DNA from: Pedobacter cryoconitis
Lineage (GTDB): Bacteria > Bacteroidota > Bacteroidia > Sphingobacteriales > Sphingobacteriaceae
DNA: 64,000 bases
Direction: 5' to 3'
Assembly: GCF_014200595.1 (NCBI RefSeq)
Contig: NZ_JACHCG010000004.1
Coordinates: forward strand, 310,001-374,000
The notes under the pieces: model-generated
Seen by the model: only the letters and a program-made list of their open reading frames with translations
What the model was told of the DNA's origin: nothing
Database searches by the model: none
Shown: positions 4,606 to 13,400 of the stretch, piece by piece
Layout of the letters: every line of letters starts with the position of its first letter
Position numbering within the stretch: position 1 is the stretch's first letter
Translations under genes and position numbers: made by a program

Positions 4606-5937
4606 ATGAGAGGATTTAAATTTGCACATACTTTAAATACGAGCAGCCGATGGACTTATAACCTGCTGGTCAAATGGGGAGTGCCCGAAGATCTGGCAGC
4701 TTTTGTCAATCTTTTTCTGCTGATGTTTGCACTGCTCATTATTGTATATATCTTTCACCATACGGTGAGAAGGATATTGAGGATCATTTTGATCCGTGCC
4801 AGCAAACGCTCAAAATTTAAGTTCTTTCATCATCTGCTCAACAACAGGTTCCCCCATTTCCTGGCGCAATGCGCACCCTTGGTCCTGGTTAATGCACTCA
4901 TTCCGATCCTCTTTCTGGATTTCCCGGACATGATCAAACCCATGAATGCCATTACTGATGTTTACATGGTATTTATTGTGATCTGGATAGCGATGACACT
5001 GATCAAAGCCAGTGGTGACGACCTGCGGACGAAATCAACTTTCCGTGAAAAACCCATAGACAGTTATATCCAGGTAGTGCGGATGATCCTTTACCTGATT
5101 GGTGCAGTAGTGATTTTCTCTCACCTGACCGGACAATCCCCAATTGCCTTTTTCACTGCAATGGGTGCTATATCAGCTGTGCTGCTATTGATGTTTAAAG
5201 ACACGATTATGGGTTTTGTAGCCAGCATCCAGGTTACAGCCAACGATACGGTCAGAATTGGCGACTGGATTACCATGACTAAATATGGGGCAGACGGAGA
5301 TGTGGTTGCGATTAACCTGACGACTGTAAAAGTGCAGAACTTTGATAAAACGATCACTACTATCCCTACCTATTCCCTGATTTCAGATTCTTTTCAGAAC
5401 TGGCGCGGGATGAGTGAAGCAGGTGGAAGGAGAATCAAAAGGGCGATCCTGATCAAGCAAGCTACCATCAGGTTTATTACCCCTGCTGAAGTTGAAGAAT
5501 TCAAGAAAATACAATCCCTTACCAGTTATATCGAACACCGCCAAAAAGACATCGATAAAAACAACGAACGTTTAGGGATTGACAAATCTCTTTTAATTAA
5601 CGGCAGAAATCTGACTAATGCCGGGCTGTACCGGAAATATATTGACAACTACCTGAACAACCACTCGGGAACACATAAAAAGATGACCATGATGGTCAGG
5701 CATCTTGCGCCTACACCAAATGGATTGCCTATCGAGCTTTACGCTTTTACCAGCACCACAAAATGGGCTGACTATGAATATATCATGGCCGATATTTTTG
5801 ATCACCTGATTGCTGCCGCCCGTTACTTCGACCTCCAGATTTATGAAACAGAAGCTTCTGGTGACACAACCAGTATTAGTTTTAATGATCCCCTGACCGT
5901 TAGCCGTCCGCCGGCCTCCCGTCAGGGAAATCCTTAG
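4606..5937 (+). CDS. MscS-family mechanosensitive channel, YbdG-like
   Basis: The 443-residue protein has hydrophobic segments at about residues 30-50, 85-105, 115-135, 155-175 and 180-200. A typical MscS pore and beta-domain follows: AVLLLMFKDTIMGFVASIQV, RIGDWITM, VVAINLTTVKVQNFDKTITTIP and SFQNWRGM. The long insertion and large C-terminal domain resemble E. coli YbdG rather than the short MscS. The likely role is an inner-membrane channel that releases solutes on hypo-osmotic shock. The start at 4606 follows a GAGGAA-like purine stretch. It is convergent with the adenylation gene and the two stop codons overlap by 4 nt. Confidence 0.88.
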   Translation: MRGFKFAHTLNTSSRWTYNLLVKWGVPEDLAAFVNLFLLMFALLIIVYIFHHTVRRILRIILIRASKRSKFKFFHHLLNNRFPHFLAQCAPLVLVNALIPILFLDFPDMIKPMNAITDVYMVFIVIWIAMTLIKASGDDLRTKSTFREKPIDSYIQVVRMILYLIGAVVIFSHLTGQSPIAFFTAMGAISAVLLLMFKDTIMGFVASIQVTANDTVRIGDWITMTKYGADGDVVAINLTTVKVQNFDKTITTIPTYSLISDSFQNWRGMSEAGGRRIKRAILIKQATIRFITPAEVEEFKKIQSLTSYIEHRQKDIDKNNERLGIDKSLLINGRNLTNAGLYRKYIDNYLNNHSGTHKKMTMMVRHLAPTPNGLPIELYAFTSTTKWADYEYIMADIFDHLIAAARYFDLQIYETEASGDTTSISFNDPLTVSRPPASRQGNP

Positions 5938-7307
5938 TTTATCAGCTGAATTGCTGTGCCGTAATCGATCTTGCCATTCGGCGTTAAAGGGACCGACTCC
6001 ACAAATTTCACTTTGACCATACTTGGGTGTACATTTAACTTTTCTTTGAGTATTTGTTTAACCTGTTCAGTGGCTAGTTCTTCGTTTAAATGCAATACCA
6101 GGATTGATTTATCCTCAATCCCCATACATACAAAAGTTTCTCCGCCCAATGCATTTTTAAGGATCAGTTCTACTTCATCCAGGTTCATCCGGGTACCAAA
6201 TAATTTCACAATCCTTTTGATCCTTCCGATAATATAATAATAACCATCTTCATCTTTCCGCCCGACATCGCCCGTTTGCAGGCGTTCAGCTTGTTGAAAT
6301 GTAATCAGATCTTCCAGTTTTCGGGCATAACCTCCAAAAATGTTAGGACCAAGGTAAATCAGCTCATTGCTATCCGGATCAATCTCGAAACTCCCATTTT
6401 TAATAGGTATTCCTATAGAAGTATTTTTAGTAAACAGATCTTCTGGTGGCAGGTAAGCCATTCTTCCCGCAGCTTCAGTCTGGCCATACATGACGAAAAA
6501 CTGCGTTTGCTGCCTTTTACCATGTTCAGCCAGTACCTGAACCAGGGTGTGGTTCAGAATCCCCCCTGTTTGTGTCATATACCTTAACGAAGGATACTCT
6601 TTTTTGAAAAAACCAATCCTGTTCAACATCTCATAAACATAAGGGACACCTCCGATAGAAGTGCACTCATACTTATCAAAATCTGCCCAGAATTCCTTTT
6701 GTAAGATATCCCGGTTCGTACAAATCATTTTTCCACCCGCAATACAATTGCTGGTAAAAATGGATAACCCATAGACAAAAATAACCGGCACATTAAGCGG
6801 CGTCACATCAGTTGCTTTGATCGGAAGGAATTCCAAAATGGAATAGGCATTTTGTACCAGATTTTCATCTGATAGCTTCACAAACTTTGGAGAACCCGTA
6901 GTTCCCGAAGTACTCAATAATAACTTGATTTCCTCATGGACAGGATAATCAGGCTCAGTCAGGTTTTTAAACAGCTGAATTCTGGAAGAAGCTTTATAAG
7001 CTTCAAAGCCAGCTATTGCTGCTCTGGAAGGATCATAGATATAATAAGGCTGATAAGCCTCTTCTAATTCCAGTTTAAACTGAATATCCAGTTGCGGGCT
7101 TAGCAGGGTAACCGTAAAACGGCTCTGTAAGAAGTTTAAAAACACTTCTACCGAGCCTATCATATTATCAGTATATAAGAAAACCACAGCTTTCCGGTCA
7201 TCAATTGTGATTGATTGATGAAATTCATTGACCCCATACGACGTATCCGTTAAGGCATCAACATAAACCAGGTTTTTATTGCTTAAAATTAAATCGTAAA
7301 GTCTCAT
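5934..7307 (-). CDS. AMP-dependent acyl/aryl ligase of the siderophore operon
   Basis: This 457-residue protein belongs to the ANL adenylating superfamily. Visible core motifs in order are STSGTTGSPKFV (A3, near residue 132), MYGQTEAAGRMAY (A5), TGDVG (A7), GRIKRIVKLFGTRMNLDEVE (A8) and PLTPNGKIDY (A10, catalytic Lys). It would activate a carboxylic acid as acyl-AMP and transfer it to a thiol. The gene sits 34 nt downstream of an ACP gene, so the acceptor is probably that ACP rather than CoA. No transmembrane segment is seen. It is the last gene of the NIS operon. The substrate cannot be read from sequence. Pairing an ANL ligase and ACP with two NIS synthetases recalls AsbC/AsbD of petrobactin, but AsbE and AsbF equivalents are absent. 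Confidence 0.85.
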   Translation of the reverse strand: MRLYDLILSNKNLVYVDALTDTSYGVNEFHQSITIDDRKAVVFLYTDNMIGSVEVFLNFLQSRFTVTLLSPQLDIQFKLELEEAYQPYYIYDPSRAAIAGFEAYKASSRIQLFKNLTEPDYPVHEEIKLLLSTSGTTGSPKFVKLSDENLVQNAYSILEFLPIKATDVTPLNVPVIFVYGLSIFTSNCIAGGKMICTNRDILQKEFWADFDKYECTSIGGVPYVYEMLNRIGFFKKEYPSLRYMTQTGGILNHTLVQVLAEHGKRQQTQFFVMYGQTEAAGRMAYLPPEDLFTKNTSIGIPIKNGSFEIDPDSNELIYLGPNIFGGYARKLEDLITFQQAERLQTGDVGRKDEDGYYYIIGRIKRIVKLFGTRMNLDEVELILKNALGGETFVCMGIEDKSILVLHLNEELATEQVKQILKEKLNVHPSMVKVKFVESVPLTPNGKIDYGTAIQLIN

Positions 7308-7341
7308 GCTGTTTATATCTTAGTCAAAAAGAGCGGTTTAG

Positions 7342-7581
7342 TCAGATTTCGACCCCGTACTTTTGCAAGCCGGAGATCACATTAGGTATGCTGTTCATTT
7401 CCAGCAGATCTTCTGTTTCAATTGCAATAGCATAGCTGGATTCCAGTTCTGCTATCAATATCATATGCGACATGGAATCCCATTCAGGGATACTCTGATA
7501 AGCTAAATCAGCTGTGATCTGATCTGAAGGGATTGCTAAGGCAGTAGCAAAAACTTCTTGTAATTTTGGTGACATGTTCAT
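7342..7581 (-). CDS. Acyl carrier protein of the siderophore operon
   Basis: This 79-residue acidic protein shows the phosphopantetheine attachment motif EWDSMSHM, with the modified serine at about residue 36. The usual ACP helices surround it (AELESSYAIAIETEDLLEM). The DSM form, rather than the DSL of fatty-acid ACP, is common in stand-alone carrier proteins paired with a dedicated AMP ligase. It lies between the MATE exporter and the ligase, so it probably carries the acyl group activated by the ligase. It needs a phosphopantetheinyl transferase encoded elsewhere. The start could be the ATG at 7579-7581 (used here) or the one two codons on. Confidence 0.88.
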   Translation of the reverse strand: MNMSPKLQEVFATALAIPSDQITADLAYQSIPEWDSMSHMILIAELESSYAIAIETEDLLEMNSIPNVISGLQKYGVEI

Positions 7582-7626
7582 GGTATTTGTTTTTTTTAGT
7601 TAGGATGAAGCAAAGCTTCCCATTTC

Positions 7627-9033
7627 TTAGACTTTTGTTTTCTTCCAGTCACCTCTTCTAAAGATGACAATACAAGCAATGGCCAGTACCAGTTCGGAAG
7701 TGAGAATCGCAATAAAGACACCTTTAGTTCCCCAGTCCATACTAATTCCAAGGAACCAGGCCAAAGGAAGCTGAGTGATATAAAACATCAGGACATAAAG
7801 CATGGTTAACTGCTTCACATTTCCCGCAGCATTCAATGCTCTGGAAATAACCATTGTATACCCCAGCAAGACATAAGCAATAGACAGGTATTGAATATAC
7901 ATGACCCCATTTTGAAGGATACCCGGCACATGCGTAAAAATGCCAATCACATCCTTCGCAAAAAACAGCCAGAATACAGCAACCAGACTTAAAAAGCACA
8001 TATTAAACCAACCTGCTCTCCATACGGTCTGTTCTGCACGTTCAGGTTGATTGGCACCCATATTTTGTCCGGTTAAAACACCCGCCGCATTTCCAATACC
8101 CCAGGCCGGCATTGTAGCTACTGAAGCTACCCGCTGCGCAATAATATAACCTGCAAAAGCATCGGCTCCGAAATGGGTAATGATTTTAGTCATGATCAGC
8201 CAGCTCGAAGAAGGGATCAGGTATTGAAAAGTCCCTGCAAAGCCTAAACGCAAAATGCTTTTTACAATTTCCGGTGCAAAAGCAAGCTGCGCTTTTTTGA
8301 TTACAATGATAGTTTTCCCTTTAATCAAATACCAAAATTGATAAATAACACCGATCACCCTGGCAATTACGGTAGCAAGCGCAACTCCGGTTAAGCCAAA
8401 AGCAGGAATAAAACCCAGGCCAAAAATCAGAACCGGGCAGAGTATAATATTAATCAGATTGGAAACCCATAAATTACGCATCGCCATAGCTGCATCACCT
8501 GCACCCCTGAAAATCCCGTTTAACAGCATTCTCAGGATCAGTAAAAAGACACTGCCCAGCATCAGCTGAGTAAAGACATGTCCCTGTACAATCAAAGCAT
8601 CCGCAGCACCTACTGCGCGTAATACCTGTGTAGAGAAAATACATAATAAAAGTGCAATGGTTCCCCCAATACTCACCCCTACATAAATGGCCTGCATAGC
8701 AGCAGAACCGGCACTTTCGAATTTAGCTTCTCCAATACGCCTGGCAATAATAGTGGATGCGGCGATACTCAGGCCCATGGCTACAGAATAAGCGACCGCA
8801 GTAATAGACTGCGTGATGCCCACAATCAGAATCGCACCCGCACCAAGCTTGCTGACAAAAAAGATATTAACGAAAACAAAAAGAGACTCCATGGTCAGTT
8901 CCAGTACCATTGGTACAGATAACAGTACAATGGCCCGGTTAATACCACCGGTAGTGAATTTCTTCTCTGTGCCTTGTAACGCCTGACGAAGCAAAAGCAG
9001 TACTGACCGCGTTTGCAAAATAAGTGTCTTCAT
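7627..9033 (-). CDS. MATE-family efflux transporter, probable siderophore exporter
   Basis: The 468-residue protein has about 12 hydrophobic segments and the MATE family pattern, with two similar halves (VPMVLELTMESLFVFVNIFFV in the first, GFAGTFQYLIPSSSWLIMTKII in the second). MATE proteins export small molecules through the inner membrane using a Na+ or H+ gradient. The start ATG overlaps the stop of the upstream NIS synthetase by one base (TAATG), so translation is probably coupled. That context makes export of the siderophore or an intermediate the best guess. The substrate is inferred only from the operon. Confidence 0.88.
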   Translation of the reverse strand: MKTLILQTRSVLLLLRQALQGTEKKFTTGGINRAIVLLSVPMVLELTMESLFVFVNIFFVSKLGAGAILIVGITQSITAVAYSVAMGLSIAASTIIARRIGEAKFESAGSAAMQAIYVGVSIGGTIALLLCIFSTQVLRAVGAADALIVQGHVFTQLMLGSVFLLILRMLLNGIFRGAGDAAMAMRNLWVSNLINIILCPVLIFGLGFIPAFGLTGVALATVIARVIGVIYQFWYLIKGKTIIVIKKAQLAFAPEIVKSILRLGFAGTFQYLIPSSSWLIMTKIITHFGADAFAGYIIAQRVASVATMPAWGIGNAAGVLTGQNMGANQPERAEQTVWRAGWFNMCFLSLVAVFWLFFAKDVIGIFTHVPGILQNGVMYIQYLSIAYVLLGYTMVISRALNAAGNVKQLTMLYVLMFYITQLPLAWFLGISMDWGTKGVFIAILTSELVLAIACIVIFRRGDWKKTKV

Positions 9034-10859
9034 TAATTTTCTTTTAATGCTTCGGTTTCAGCAGTTCTGAACAAGGTCAGCGGATTGCTTAACTGTCCGC
9101 TTTTAAATGATCTTGCGAAGCCTGTAGTCTCTTTATAACCATTGAACAAGCGCTGACTATTGATATTTAAACGCTTAAAATGTGGCACAAACAGATTATA
9201 TCTTTCAAATTTTGCATTTAGCTCCGGATGTGCCTCCTGGTAAGTTTGAATCACCTCATAGACACATTTCCAGAATGATTTTTCCGGATAACCGGCCGTA
9301 GTGTGGAAGATATCCCCTAAATACCTGAAATATGCTTCAAACACCCCGATCAAAATCACCAGGGGTACATTTTCAGGGTTGGAAGAAAGAATCATATTTT
9401 CAGAGAAGTCTTTCGGCAATTTTGCCTGAGCTTCTTCATTGAGCAAGATATCACCCGCAAAATCTTTGAGCACAATACGGACAGGCACATAGTTTTCCAT
9501 AATCAGTATTACGTTTTCCCCATGCGGGTTTACACAAACGGCATGTTGATAATAGATATGCAGCAACGGTTTCAGGTAAGCATTCAGATAGGTCATTAAC
9601 CATTCTTCAGCCGTAAGCCTCGATCTTTCAATCAGCTCCTGTACAAAGCTTTTTCCGGCATCATCTATATATAAAAGCGAAGCCATGGTCATTAACTTTT
9701 CTCCCGGCTTTAAGAATTTCCCGGGACTTTCTCTCCACAATACGCCCAGGTATTCATTGTATTGAAATGGCGGATCTATAATCCCGGTATAGTTAGGATG
9801 TAAGTAACCAATGGTAGCCACTTCGCCTAAAAGCACTAAACCCAGCTCCTGCAAATATGTATCAGTTAATAAGATACTTTTAAGCCATGCCGTTAAACGT
9901 GGTGCAATAGCGAGTTGCTTTGGCGGCAAACCTCTTACTGTTCCGGTGTTCAGGATAGAAATAGCCGTCTTTACATAATGTTTATCAGGGTGGCTCAGGT
10001 TAAAAAATGTACGGATACTTTGCTGAGGGGAATAAAGGTCATCCCCAAATGCTAAAGGAACTAACAACTGACTGGCAATATCAGCCGCAAATAAGATCAG
10101 CAGTTTATTATTCCACTGCCACTCATGTGCTGGCATCAGCAGATAATCTGAAGGTACTAACCCCTTTGCGGATAAATAGTTGTTAAATGTATTGATTTTC
10201 TCTTTGCCTAATTCAGCTTCAAAAAACTCTTGCTCATCGATCTCCTCTACCGCTTTAAAGGCAGCACGGCTTCTATGTACCGCAATCCACATCAACCTGA
10301 TATCCTGGTTTGCTTCCGGTGCATAGTTAAGGTAATCTTCTTGATTAAAATCAAGCCTTCCCTTATTGACAATAATCCAGGGGTGCCCCTCCATCTGATG
10401 CTCAATGGTCTGATAATCTGCCTCAGCTAAAGTACCCGCTGCCATCCGTCCTCTGGACTGAATAAAAGCATCTGCGTATAAAGTATGCAGGATTTCTTCT
10501 ATGTAATGTGCAAGTGTAAAAGAGTTAAGACCAAAGGTCTGCTGTACTTCGGTAAAAAAAGCCGGCACATCTGTTGCTGGTTTTGCCAGCCCATTTACAT
10601 GCTTCAGGATCGAAGGTTTAAGGATATGCCAGTAATCCAGCAGCCGGGGGTAAGCTGAAAAAGTATAATAGATATTTTCATGATCAGTATTCAGCCTGAA
10701 GTGAATCAGTCCGTCCTGCTCTTCACTGATAATTTGTGGAAGCGCAATCTGCTCATGCATCAATTCTGTTAATGTTTTGGCAAAAAGATCCGTATTCACT
10801 TTTTCCCATATCGGAAGATGAAGAGGCATTACGCTCTTCAGTAAATTTGTCGTTGTCAT
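9033..10859 (-). CDS. IucA/IucC-type NIS siderophore synthetase
   Basis: The 608-residue length is normal for an NRPS-independent siderophore synthetase. These enzymes use ATP to adenylate a citrate- or succinate-type carboxylate and condense it with an amine or alcohol. Family blocks include MEGHPWIIVNKGR near residue 155, LLMPAHEWQWNN, SIRTFFNLSHPDKHYVKTAI (nucleotide-binding region), and the C-terminal VNPHGENVILIMENYVP plus LKDFAGDI, typical of the FhuF-like domain. It lies 2 nt downstream of the fused synthetase, so the pair is cotranscribed. Two synthetases in one operon suggest two sequential condensations. The A/B/C subtype was not determined. Confidence 0.92.
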   Translation of the reverse strand: MTTTNLLKSVMPLHLPIWEKVNTDLFAKTLTELMHEQIALPQIISEEQDGLIHFRLNTDHENIYYTFSAYPRLLDYWHILKPSILKHVNGLAKPATDVPAFFTEVQQTFGLNSFTLAHYIEEILHTLYADAFIQSRGRMAAGTLAEADYQTIEHQMEGHPWIIVNKGRLDFNQEDYLNYAPEANQDIRLMWIAVHRSRAAFKAVEEIDEQEFFEAELGKEKINTFNNYLSAKGLVPSDYLLMPAHEWQWNNKLLILFAADIASQLLVPLAFGDDLYSPQQSIRTFFNLSHPDKHYVKTAISILNTGTVRGLPPKQLAIAPRLTAWLKSILLTDTYLQELGLVLLGEVATIGYLHPNYTGIIDPPFQYNEYLGVLWRESPGKFLKPGEKLMTMASLLYIDDAGKSFVQELIERSRLTAEEWLMTYLNAYLKPLLHIYYQHAVCVNPHGENVILIMENYVPVRIVLKDFAGDILLNEEAQAKLPKDFSENMILSSNPENVPLVILIGVFEAYFRYLGDIFHTTAGYPEKSFWKCVYEVIQTYQEAHPELNAKFERYNLFVPHFKRLNINSQRLFNGYKETTGFARSFKSGQLSNPLTLFRTAETEALKEN

Positions 10860-10861
10860 TT

Positions 10862-13324
10862 CTAAGATGTTTTAGGCTTAAGTGCTGGGACCAGTTCGTT
10901 TCGAAAATCTTTGGCTGCCGGGAATTTTGCCCAGTACCATTCCCGATAACAGAAATTCAGGTTGGCTTTCTTGTCTGGCAATTCGATTACCTTTTCAATT
11001 TTGAACCCAACATGTGCCTTATTCATAATCGAAGCCATAGAATCTACAGAACCCTCTCCAACCATTTTCCCGACCTTTGGTTCTGCAAAAACATAATCCA
11101 GTATGGATTGCGTAGATGGAGAAGCAAATTTCAATTTAGGATCAACGGGTGCGATAAACTGGTGTGTACCGTAATCAGTTGGTAAAGCATCATAGTATTT
11201 ACCTACTAAATCGCGGCAGGCCCAATAAACTTCAAAGTTGAAAGTAGGTACACCATTAGCTTCCCCGATATAGCTGTTCACTACATTTCCAGCCAGTAAA
11301 GTGCGGTAAAATGTTTCCAGTTCACGGATTGGCCAGTTCATTTTCCAGATCTTTAATGCATGTTCACGGTGGAACCACTCATGCAGCATTTCCAGATCAC
11401 GGTCCAGGTCTAAAGGACGGATAGTGATTTCAACATCCTCTTTCGGAAAGTAACGGCTAAAAACAACATCTTTCCCTTTTGGATTGATCAGTTCTTTAGA
11501 AAACACCTTTTTATTCAGCGGATTAGGAAATTCTTTATAAACAGCGGGATGTGTTCTGGGCGCACTGGCCTCATCCATATTATTCAGATTGGTCAGCAAA
11601 TTCCCTTTGATAGTTAATATGGTACTATTCAGCAGATGCGCAACTAAACCTGTGGTATCGGCTTCTTCTTCTGCCCAATAGGCATCATATAACAAGCTGA
11701 TTAACACCTGCTCATCTGCCAGTCCGCTTCTGCCTAAAGCATTTACAATACCTAACAGATGATTCACCAGCAGGTAATAGCTATGGAAATTAATCAATCT
11801 TGGCTCTCCGATAAAAGATCTGCTGTCAATCCCAAAATCAGGAATGACGGTATAAAGTTCTTCTACTTTACCCTGGCGGAAAAAATAGCCCTGATTATCC
11901 CTGAAGTGCAATCTGGCCGGGAAAAGCTGAGCGTCAAACTCAACCAGCATATTCTGCTGATGATACTCCCCGCCCAGCCCATATTTATTAAAGACACCGA
12001 CTAACGGTTTAATGGTAATTTTCAAATACTGCGTAAACCAGGCAATCGCAACTTCCTGAACGGGTTTTCCCTGGCGGCTTGCGGCTTCTGTGATCAAATT
12101 CAGCATTCTTGGCGCTTGTCCTAATACACCATCCTGAGTTAAAGAAGCAACCATGCCTACATTCTTTTTCGAAGCTGCTCCGCGGAAAGGATTTTGACGG
12201 ATACTTGTGCTAAAGCCATCAATCACCTGTCCCTGGTAACTCACCATAATAAATGCAGGGTCTGTCATCAAGTTTATCTCCGGAAAATCTTTCCCAATCC
12301 CCTGACCCCAGGCTGTTTTTAATAAAACACTCGCATCATATCCACGGTGTAGCTCATGCGGATAATTGACGCGGAAAGAATTGGTGATTTTAACATGCAA
12401 AGAGAATTTATACATCCATTCGCTCTCTTCATTGTACACGGTACGAACCGATGAAGTTGCTGTAAACAAGGGGCCGAATGAACCCAGACGATGTAAAAGT
12501 CCTGCCGCCTGCATTTCCTTTACTTCCGACAGTGTTAATAAATATTCAGACTCCCATGGATGTACCGGAACAACTTTCCAGTCTGGGTACTGCGTCAATA
12601 TATTCTTTAAAGTTTCGTCATCACCGGCCAGCAGGCCATTTCTGAGCTGCACCGTAGTCAGTACCGCTTCAGAACTCTTTTCAATGACATAGTCCGGATG
12701 AATCAGGAAGTAACTTAACTGAAACTTTCCACCGGTTTCCGGAGAATACTTAGCCAGCTCTGCTTCCGTAAACCCTTCTCTGCTTTTTGGCAGCGGATGT
12801 ACGCTGTGCCCCAATATCAAGGACTGTTCTGCCTCAATAAACGACATTTCAGGCTGGTTAGCTTTGCGGTTATTCGACTGGAAATCGAAAAGATAACCCC
12901 TTAAATTGTGAATACTATTTTCAAGCCGCCCCAAGGTAATCTCCGGATCGACATCAGGATAGGCATCCTTAGCAAACGCCGCAATCAATTCTACAAACCG
13001 CTTCGGATCTATGGCCCGAATTACATCTGTTTGACAATTGCGTTCTACAATCGGATAAAAGAAAGAGTGAACCCCACTCTCAGAAAAATAAGCAAGAGGT
13101 ACGAAAACTTCTATGCCTATACCTGTAAAATCAAATCTTAGAAATGAGGTGTAACCACTTGATCTCATATAATCGGCCAGCGCCACATCATATTTTGGAA
13201 TACCTTCATAGCGGCTCCAATTGTCAAACTCCCGGCAGCAGCAATTAATCAGTGATTTAAAATTAACTTGTTCTGCCTGTGTACGCAGCTCAGTTAAGTC
13301 GAAAATAGTACTTGTTGTTTTCAT
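10862..13324 (-). CDS. NIS siderophore synthetase fused to IucB-like N-acyltransferase
   Basis: At 820 residues this is about 200 longer than a plain NIS synthetase. Residues up to about 610 form an IucA/IucC domain, with VHPLPKSREGFTEAELAKYS (substrate loop), VPVHPWESEYLL, ATSSVRTVYNEESEWMYKFS, KITNSFRVNYPHE and the C-terminal YHQQNMLVEFD. Residues about 630-815 form a GNAT domain of the IucB/AlcB/RhbD type, shown by LHEWFHREHALKIWKMNWP, FNFEVYWACRDLVGKYYDA and MVGEGSVDSM. That domain normally acylates an N-hydroxylated diamine or lysine to make a hydroxamate. It is the first gene of the operon, with a palindromic operator-promoter about 90 nt upstream. No hydroxylase gene is in this window. 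Confidence 0.92.
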   Translation of the reverse strand: MKTTSTIFDLTELRTQAEQVNFKSLINCCCREFDNWSRYEGIPKYDVALADYMRSSGYTSFLRFDFTGIGIEVFVPLAYFSESGVHSFFYPIVERNCQTDVIRAIDPKRFVELIAAFAKDAYPDVDPEITLGRLENSIHNLRGYLFDFQSNNRKANQPEMSFIEAEQSLILGHSVHPLPKSREGFTEAELAKYSPETGGKFQLSYFLIHPDYVIEKSSEAVLTTVQLRNGLLAGDDETLKNILTQYPDWKVVPVHPWESEYLLTLSEVKEMQAAGLLHRLGSFGPLFTATSSVRTVYNEESEWMYKFSLHVKITNSFRVNYPHELHRGYDASVLLKTAWGQGIGKDFPEINLMTDPAFIMVSYQGQVIDGFSTSIRQNPFRGAASKKNVGMVASLTQDGVLGQAPRMLNLITEAASRQGKPVQEVAIAWFTQYLKITIKPLVGVFNKYGLGGEYHQQNMLVEFDAQLFPARLHFRDNQGYFFRQGKVEELYTVIPDFGIDSRSFIGEPRLINFHSYYLLVNHLLGIVNALGRSGLADEQVLISLLYDAYWAEEEADTTGLVAHLLNSTILTIKGNLLTNLNNMDEASAPRTHPAVYKEFPNPLNKKVFSKELINPKGKDVVFSRYFPKEDVEITIRPLDLDRDLEMLHEWFHREHALKIWKMNWPIRELETFYRTLLAGNVVNSYIGEANGVPTFNFEVYWACRDLVGKYYDALPTDYGTHQFIAPVDPKLKFASPSTQSILDYVFAEPKVGKMVGEGSVDSMASIMNKAHVGFKIEKVIELPDKKANLNFCYREWYWAKFPAAKDFRNELVPALKPKTS

Positions 13325-13400
13325 GTAGTAGCAGATGTAGGGTTAAGAATTCGTCAATCAATAAACTATTCTTATTTAGAACAATTAAAATTAACAAGGG

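Follow-up and report, generated by a model that had tools for sequence, protein, structure and literature searches.

How does an operon for a citrate siderophore use an acyl carrier protein (ACP) and an AMP-forming ligase of its own, i.e. which acid do the two proteins handle and which enzyme takes it over? This question is raised by a five-gene operon for a siderophore made independently of nonribosomal peptide synthetases (NRPS-independent siderophore, NIS) in Pedobacter cryoconitis, found within the window, the 64,000-nucleotide stretch that we analyzed (contig NZ_JACHCG010000004.1, positions 310,001 to 374,000). We consider it likely that this operon works like the pathway to chryseochelin: the ligase would load fumarate on the ACP and a GNAT acyltransferase domain would transfer it, with N-hydroxycadaverine provided from elsewhere. 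The operon itself belongs to a known class, that of the NIS citrate hydroxamates; what would be new, as far as biochemistry can be predicted from sequence, is that fumarate is attached via an ACP and that the pathway is divided between two operons. It consists of five intact open reading frames (ORFs) between 5934 and 13324, all on the minus strand, with adjacent genes overlapping by 1 bp or separated by 2-45 bp:

10862..13324, minus strand: type A (IucA-like) NIS synthetase with a C-terminal GNAT domain of the MbtK/IucB/DfoC type (820 aa; GNAT core at about 10982-11410)
9033..10859, minus strand: type C NIS synthetase (608 aa; PF04183, 260 bits)
7627..9033, minus strand: MATE exporter (468 aa; TIGR00797, 222.5 bits, cut-off 147.4)
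7342..7581, minus strand: stand-alone ACP (79 aa; PF00550, PP-binding, 22.5 bits, cut-off 20.8)
5934..7307, minus strand: ANL (AMP-forming) ligase (457 aa; PF00501, 100 bits), predicted fumarate:ACP ligase

These are the genes and products named in a preliminary description of the window, and profile searches bear out that inventory. The 820-aa fusion matches PF04183 (181 bits), PF06276 (FhuF-like, 82 bits) and PF13523 (Acetyltransf_8, 110 bits), and in the PDB it matches IucA (167 bits) and the GNAT domain of DfoC (90 bits). Nearest solved relatives of the 608-aa synthetase are DfoC (465 bits), DesD (451 bits) and AlcC (451 bits), so that this type C enzyme would be the one adding the second arm onto the citryl intermediate. 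The MATE protein is probably the siderophore exporter; its gene lies between those of the type C enzyme and the ACP in the ACP-ligase operons read in context. The ACP has an EWDSMSH motif with Ser36 as the candidate phosphopantetheine residue, and the ligase keeps the usual ANL motifs. As the order of the five genes is kept in other genera, the set is not a product of chance. What the preliminary description overlooked is that the operon lacks both a diamine decarboxylase and an N-hydroxylase, each of which a hydroxamate pathway needs, that a second operon could supply them, that mycobactin offers a precedent, and that there is a link to chryseochelin and fumarate.

The preliminary description had further proposed that an acid activated by the ligase and held on the ACP is the donor for the GNAT domain or for a synthetase. 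We compared 41 fusions from operons with the ACP-ligase pair (ACP+) with 22 fusions from operons without the pair (ACP-). Flavobacterium tructae is probably duplicated among them (L035 and L185), so the 41 ACP+ rows probably represent 40 organisms; the fusion of DSM 14825 and that of the second operon of S3M1 were left out because of a stop in the aligned stretch, as were Flavivirga (fusion only partially contained in its locus) and two distant fragments (G058, G059b). GNAT identity to the window is 70.9-98.4% in all 40 other ACP+ fusions and 48.3-56.2% in all 22 ACP- fusions, whereas the ranges for the fused type A part are 29.6-93.0% and 47.4-55.1%, respectively. With P. cryoconitis M2T3 as the reference, the GNAT domains of the far ACP+ clade from family f22 (n = 19) reach 74.6% and those of ACP- operons (n = 17-23) 54.9%; the same comparison gives 32.5 vs 49.4% for type A, 54.7 vs 55.9% for type C, 64.3 vs 63.3% for the decarboxylase and 57.2 vs 58.1% for the N-hydroxylase. 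The GNAT margin towards ACP+ is 19 points with F. aquidurense and 24 points with Aquimarina muelleri as the reference, while every other part favours ACP+ by at most 5.2 points. The GNAT domain has 9 fixed positions private to one group (of 191), the type A part has 1 (of 600).

Both trees that the preliminary description had suggested separate the groups, to different extents. In the GNAT tree (20 ACP+ and 12 ACP- representatives) they stand apart at 100/100; a type A tree built from these rows parts them as well, by one short branch (96 SH-aLRT). The latter weighs against our interpretation, as shared history may lie behind part of the GNAT signal. What is distinctive in these alignments is the tight ACP+ GNAT group, which persists despite very different type A parts. 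The type C synthetase, by comparison, does not separate ACP+ from ACP- operons and is not favoured as the acyl recipient, so the synthetase half of the earlier proposal loses ground. We also considered ester formation as the reason for the divergent type A parts of Chryseobacterium type and found it unsupported, as their AcsD score is barely raised against that for IucA (AcsD vs IucA: 54 vs 156 bits; in the window 52 vs 167 bits). The P-loop of the GNAT domain was dropped as a test for the use of coenzyme A (CoA) vs ACP, being degenerate by eye in both groups and in DfoC.

Two profiles, one from 16 ACP+ GNAT domains (including Flavivirga) and one from 12 ACP- domains, point in the same direction as the identities. 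The ACP+ profile scores higher than the ACP- profile against MbtK (46.0 vs 28.8 bits), Rv1347c (57.5 vs 36.6 bits) and SidF (68.9 vs 63.2 bits), and lower against DfoC (99.4 vs 119 bits) and NcdE (38.3 vs 55.7 bits). This shift from DfoC towards MbtK, together with the separation of the GNAT sequences, supports the GNAT domain as the candidate user of the ACP-loaded acid, as had been proposed, and the product is probably as unusual as was then expected. The GNAT domain of DfoC is of the CoA type, and DfoC is still the top PDB match of the ACP+ profile; moreover, the relatives of the ligase include CoA ligases, e.g. oxalate-CoA ligase. The ligase might thus yield fumaryl-CoA (or another acyl-CoA) for direct use by the GNAT domain, with the ACP serving another step or being dispensable. 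Given the direction of the profile shift, and with the ACP gene placed between those of the MATE protein and the ligase in the ACP+ operons read, we regard this as very unlikely.

In mycobacteria, MbtK has the ACP MbtL and the ligase MbtM as its partners. Its role is that of the mycobactin acyltransferase (PMC4376628; the papers cited here by PMC number are drawn on in part, and what we say of them refers to those parts). An AMP ligase, a stand-alone ACP and a GNAT domain of the same type (PF13523) are all three present in the window operon, and the mycobactin trio is, by analogy, a precedent for such proteins acting together on a siderophore. We do not file the window system as a member, however: mycobactin carries a long-chain acyl group on lysine and is a siderophore of NRPS and polyketide synthase (PKS) origin rather than a NIS, whereas in the window the GNAT domain is part of a fusion with a type A NIS synthetase and probably handles fumarate.

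The reason for naming fumarate is chryseochelin A. This siderophore of three Chryseobacterium isolates is composed of citrate and two N-hydroxylated 3-hydroxycadaverines, with fumaric acid as the hydroxamate acyl group on both arms (PMC9989332); the window system would resemble it in the citrate core, the two N-hydroxylated arms of cadaverine type and the fumaric acid hydroxamates. The main text of that paper contains no occurrence of gene cluster, synthetase, monooxygenase or decarboxylase, and the part of the chryseochelin literature covered gives no biosynthesis genes. The scan of named genomes covered the best 80 of 89 matching stretches (79 loci). The full order of seven genes (decarboxylase, type A/GNAT fusion, N-hydroxylase, type C, MATE, ACP, ligase) occurs in P. 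cryoconitis M2T3, in A. muelleri and in at least 11 Flavobacterium-type loci, as well as in four genomes of family f49 (G136, G454, G356, G318; G356, probably F. tructae, is one of those 11 already) and, in another family, f22, in 19 genomes. We take f22 to be the family that includes Chryseobacterium, since the fusion of the f22 genome G322 shares 79% identity with protein P0072 of C. joostei over 802 of 802 residues. Its sample has the fusion in 31 of 197 genomes; 23 of the 31 were read in context, giving the 19 full operons and four operons without the ACP-ligase pair (G388, G661, G671, G673). In all 23 full-operon genomes tested (19 f22, 4 f49), the two synthetases of the operon are the only IucA/IucC matches, i.e. 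the 19 f22 genomes carry the full operon as the only NIS locus found. In a sample of 395 genomes from the phylum, the fusion (E<=1e-100) was found in 8 and the ligase (E<=1e-80) in 11, four of the latter without the fusion. In Flavivirga a TonB receptor stands between the N-hydroxylase and a more distant type C gene, and in the f22 locus L188 the ligase is directly followed by a TonB receptor and a PepSY protein.

The full operons are accompanied by one further gene. A TauD-family gene beside them matches L-lysine 4-hydroxylase (PDB 6EUO) with 765 bits over 372 of 372 residues in the copy of locus L183. Of the 24 full operons whose upstream sequence extends for 1.9 kb or more, it adjoins 23 (the exception is L185); of the 23 ACP- operons with 1.85 kb or more upstream, including the four from f22, it adjoins none. 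Aquimarina and the 11 Flavobacterium-type loci, which have no more than about 1 kb ahead of the decarboxylase, do not enter these counts. Decarboxylation of 4-hydroxylysine yields 3-hydroxycadaverine. Both unusual building blocks of chryseochelin would hence be explained by genes, the lysine 4-hydroxylase beside the operon and the ligase and ACP within it. Dioxygenases that 4-hydroxylate lysine have been described in Chitinophaga, Niastella and Flavobacterium (PMC12930750); the window GNAT domain has close relatives in these same three genera. In the window genome and four other genomes with the reduced, five-gene operon, no lysine 4-hydroxylase match was found at E<=1e-10; the arms of the window product are thus predicted not to be 3-hydroxylated. 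For this reason we do not file it as a member of the chryseochelin system, even though it would work like it; the window strain also differs in having its pathway split over two operons.

The ligase, too, points to a dicarboxylic acid. Its top PDB matches, found before chryseochelin had come to our attention, are oxalate-CoA ligase (85 bits) and VinN (77 bits); the reading of the pocket that follows was made after fumarate was suspected. VinN (vicenistatin) and AfcQ are stand-alone ANL enzymes for 3-methylaspartate or aspartate, and VinN is likewise paired with a stand-alone ACP. Arg282 of the window ligase aligns with the Arg of a Lys-Arg pair that follows the YGQTE motif in VinN, apparently the Lys330-Arg331 of PMC11253843, and in a model of the related AfcQ the residue equivalent to Arg331 binds aspartate by its free carboxylate (PMC12186527). 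In contrast, Asp230 of VinN, which holds the amine, is replaced by Val178, so the substrate should lack that amine. Arg282 is present in 43 of 43 NIS-linked ligases and 7 of 7 relatives from other contexts, Val178 in 43 of 43 and 1 of 7, respectively. Because of these two positions the predicted pocket fits a dicarboxylic acid without an amine, e.g. fumarate, and fumarate is probably the acid activated. Fumaryl-CoA is an uncommon metabolite, which would explain a dedicated ligase and ACP.

A different acid has to be weighed at this point: ligase and ACP could activate fatty acids, to be attached by the GNAT domain or another enzyme, giving an amphiphilic citrate siderophore (cf. acinetoferrin, synechobactin, chryseochelin C). 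The shift of the GNAT profile towards MbtK/Rv1347c fits this, MbtK being a transferase of fatty acids, and one of the top NCBIfam matches of the ligase, below its cut-off, is a subfamily of long-chain fatty-acid-CoA ligases; the best NCBIfam matches of the ligase are all far below cut-off and less specific. Chryseochelin C likewise bears fatty acids, on its primary amine. Against fatty acids, the variable chain lengths of chryseochelin C suit a separate, promiscuous acylation, and the hydroxamate acyl group of chryseochelin A is fumaric acid (PMC9989332). As the best PDB matches of the ligase use small dicarboxylic substrates and Arg282 has its counterpart in VinN, we think fatty acids unlikely and retain fumarate. 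The structure of the ligase was of no use for naming the substrate: the AlphaFold model is good, with a pLDDT of 89, but Foldseek and VIA-align matches were tied across many specificities. Two near relatives of the ligase occur outside NIS operons, in apparently polysaccharide-type clusters with SDR, LuxE and glycosyltransferase genes (L023:4535-11048, also with LuxC, and L190:5214-9925, with an ACP); both ligases have Arg282.

Where, then, does the N-hydroxylated diamine come from in the window strain? The window genome contains a second NIS operon on another contig (C1:2.91 Mb) with a decarboxylase, a type A/GNAT fusion, an N-hydroxylase and a type C synthetase, and with no MATE, ACP or ligase gene alongside. 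PF13434 has one strong match in this genome (399.9 bits), which lies in the second operon, and three others at 23-27 bits. The fusions of the two operons are 55% identical and their type C enzymes 56%. We did not adopt the NCBIfam names below cut-off for the decarboxylase (RhbB-like, 382 bits, cut-off 900) and the N-hydroxylase (TIGR04439, 443 bits, cut-off 700). Of the seven-gene set, which is a candidate set proposed here and unpublished, five genes are thus in the window operon and two in the second operon. The reduced five-gene form is found in the window, G018, G065, S3M1, PAMC26386 and DSM 14825, while M2T3 has the full operon and no other. Among 118 sampled genomes, 7 have the ligase (E<=1e-60) and 21 the N-hydroxylase; all five genomes with the reduced operon keep the decarboxylase and the N-hydroxylase of the second operon. 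Since their ligases form one clade, this probably counts as one event and not five. When the ligase tree is rooted with two relatives, the clade from reduced Pedobacter operons branches outside the full-operon ligases with moderate support (81/75); the case for a loss of decarboxylase and N-hydroxylase therefore rests on the gene order common with ACP- operons and not on the tree. In PAMC26386 (three NIS matches; genome rated 84% complete) the type C gene of the second operon is reduced to a remnant, so its operons share one decarboxylase, one N-hydroxylase and one type C enzyme. A fifth NIS synthetase match, apparently unfused, is present in G018 (C1:3368882) and G065 (C1:5488073) and is perhaps the orphan type A' cluster of PMC10609062; in G059 (C16:1434075, locus L141) a TAA lies within the reported N-hydroxylase match.

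The two operons of the window genome also have an upstream element in common:

13372..13386, minus strand: putative iron-regulated element AATTGTTCTAAATAA, upstream of the window operon

The same 15 bases are found upstream of the second NIS operon. The pattern AATTNNTCTAAATAA matches 9 sites in the genome and its reversed control 2; apart from those of the two operons, 7 sites remain, and 3 of them precede TonB-receptor genes of the window genome (L241, L244, L245), which are candidate receptors for these siderophores. Without an N-hydroxylase or decarboxylase gene, the reduced operon might instead be autonomous and make a non-hydroxamate product, e.g. a citrate amide of an unhydroxylated fumaryl diamine. 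This we hold to be highly improbable: the second operon with both genes is kept in 5 of 5 reduced-operon genomes of the sample, the upstream motif is common to both operons, and the GNAT domain falls in the same 71-98% group as those of full operons with an N-hydroxylase of their own. The two operons seem to be mutually dependent.

The pathway that we propose has three steps. The ligase would adenylate fumarate and load it onto the phosphopantetheine arm of the ACP. The GNAT domain, in the step that the comparison supports, would move the fumaryl group onto the hydroxylamine of N-hydroxycadaverine, giving an N-hydroxy-N-fumaryl arm; in the window strain the second NIS operon, with its decarboxylase and N-hydroxylase, would be the simplest source of this diamine. 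Going by their families, the type A domain would couple one arm to citrate and the type C enzyme the second, and the MATE protein would export the product. Since the search for a lysine 4-hydroxylase gave no match, we expect a product without 3-hydroxyl groups, namely citrate bis(N-hydroxy-N-fumaryl-cadaverine), C24H36N4O13, with [M+H]+ 589.235. A wider reading, to which we give an even chance, is that a mobile acylation module (GNAT, MATE, ACP and fumarate ligase) has joined diverse type A synthetases across Bacteroidota to make fumaryl-hydroxamates via acyl-ACP, and that in one Pedobacter branch the pathway is split into two co-regulated operons that share decarboxylase and N-hydroxylase and feed two siderophores, perhaps with mixed acetyl/fumaryl forms (which would have [M+H]+ 533.245).

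Among the other known systems, the petrobactin pathway (AsbA-F) has NIS synthetases, an AMP ligase and a carrier protein. These it shares with the window operon, which differs by its GNAT domain; AsbE- or AsbF-like genes, already noted as absent in the preliminary description, are not among the ORFs scanned around the operon (the whole genome was not searched), and a petrobactin-like aryl pathway was rejected. NIS clusters of Pedobacter have been sorted into groups, of which Groups 2 and 3 contain IucAC/AcD fusions and a second NIS synthetase in P. cryoconitis and P. lusitanus, Group 3 in addition a decarboxylase and a monooxygenase; their products were called unknown (PMC10609062). These groups are probably the two operons of the window genome, and the parts of the paper on these clusters do not mention the ACP, the ligase, fumarate or a dependence between clusters. 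Among the literature matches listed, mostly titles and beginnings of abstracts, there was no NIS cluster with an ACP-ligase acylation module.

The neighbours of the window operon are a catalase and an ankyrin-repeat gene at one end and, at the opposite end, a mechanosensitive channel and two small genes, followed by S12-S7-EF-G. Of the ORFs scanned, those beside the operon gave no TonB receptor and those around it no NRPS or PKS gene. Just upstream of the decarboxylase, the Flavobacterium-type, Aquimarina and Pedobacter M2T3 operons have one more gene:

L183:2884-3519, L186:3008-3640, L026:513-1130 and L027:299-943: nitroreductase-family gene upstream of the decarboxylase

It had no match in the f22 (Chryseobacterium-type) loci; a NIS cluster of P. 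hartonius also has a dioxygenase and a nitroreductase (PMC10609062). Downstream of the full operon of M2T3, a 378-aa protein (L026:11499-12635) matches the thiol-activated cytolysin family just below the cut-off.

Taken together, these results provide a candidate gene cluster for chryseochelin. This siderophore is made by plant-protecting bacteria, and its discoverers left its biosynthesis open (PMC9989332). Its odd building blocks would originate from a lysine 4-hydroxylase, leading to 3-hydroxycadaverine, and from a dedicated ligase and ACP in the case of fumarate. If true, this would be, to our knowledge, the first ACP-dependent hydroxamate acylation in a NIS pathway. It also suggests a rule by which the GNAT subfamily predicts whether a NIS cluster of Bacteroidota makes a fumaryl product. 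In Pedobacter, the dependence between the two operons would make the cross-talk of biosynthetic clusters directly testable, and genetic tools for this branch have been published (PMC12181424).

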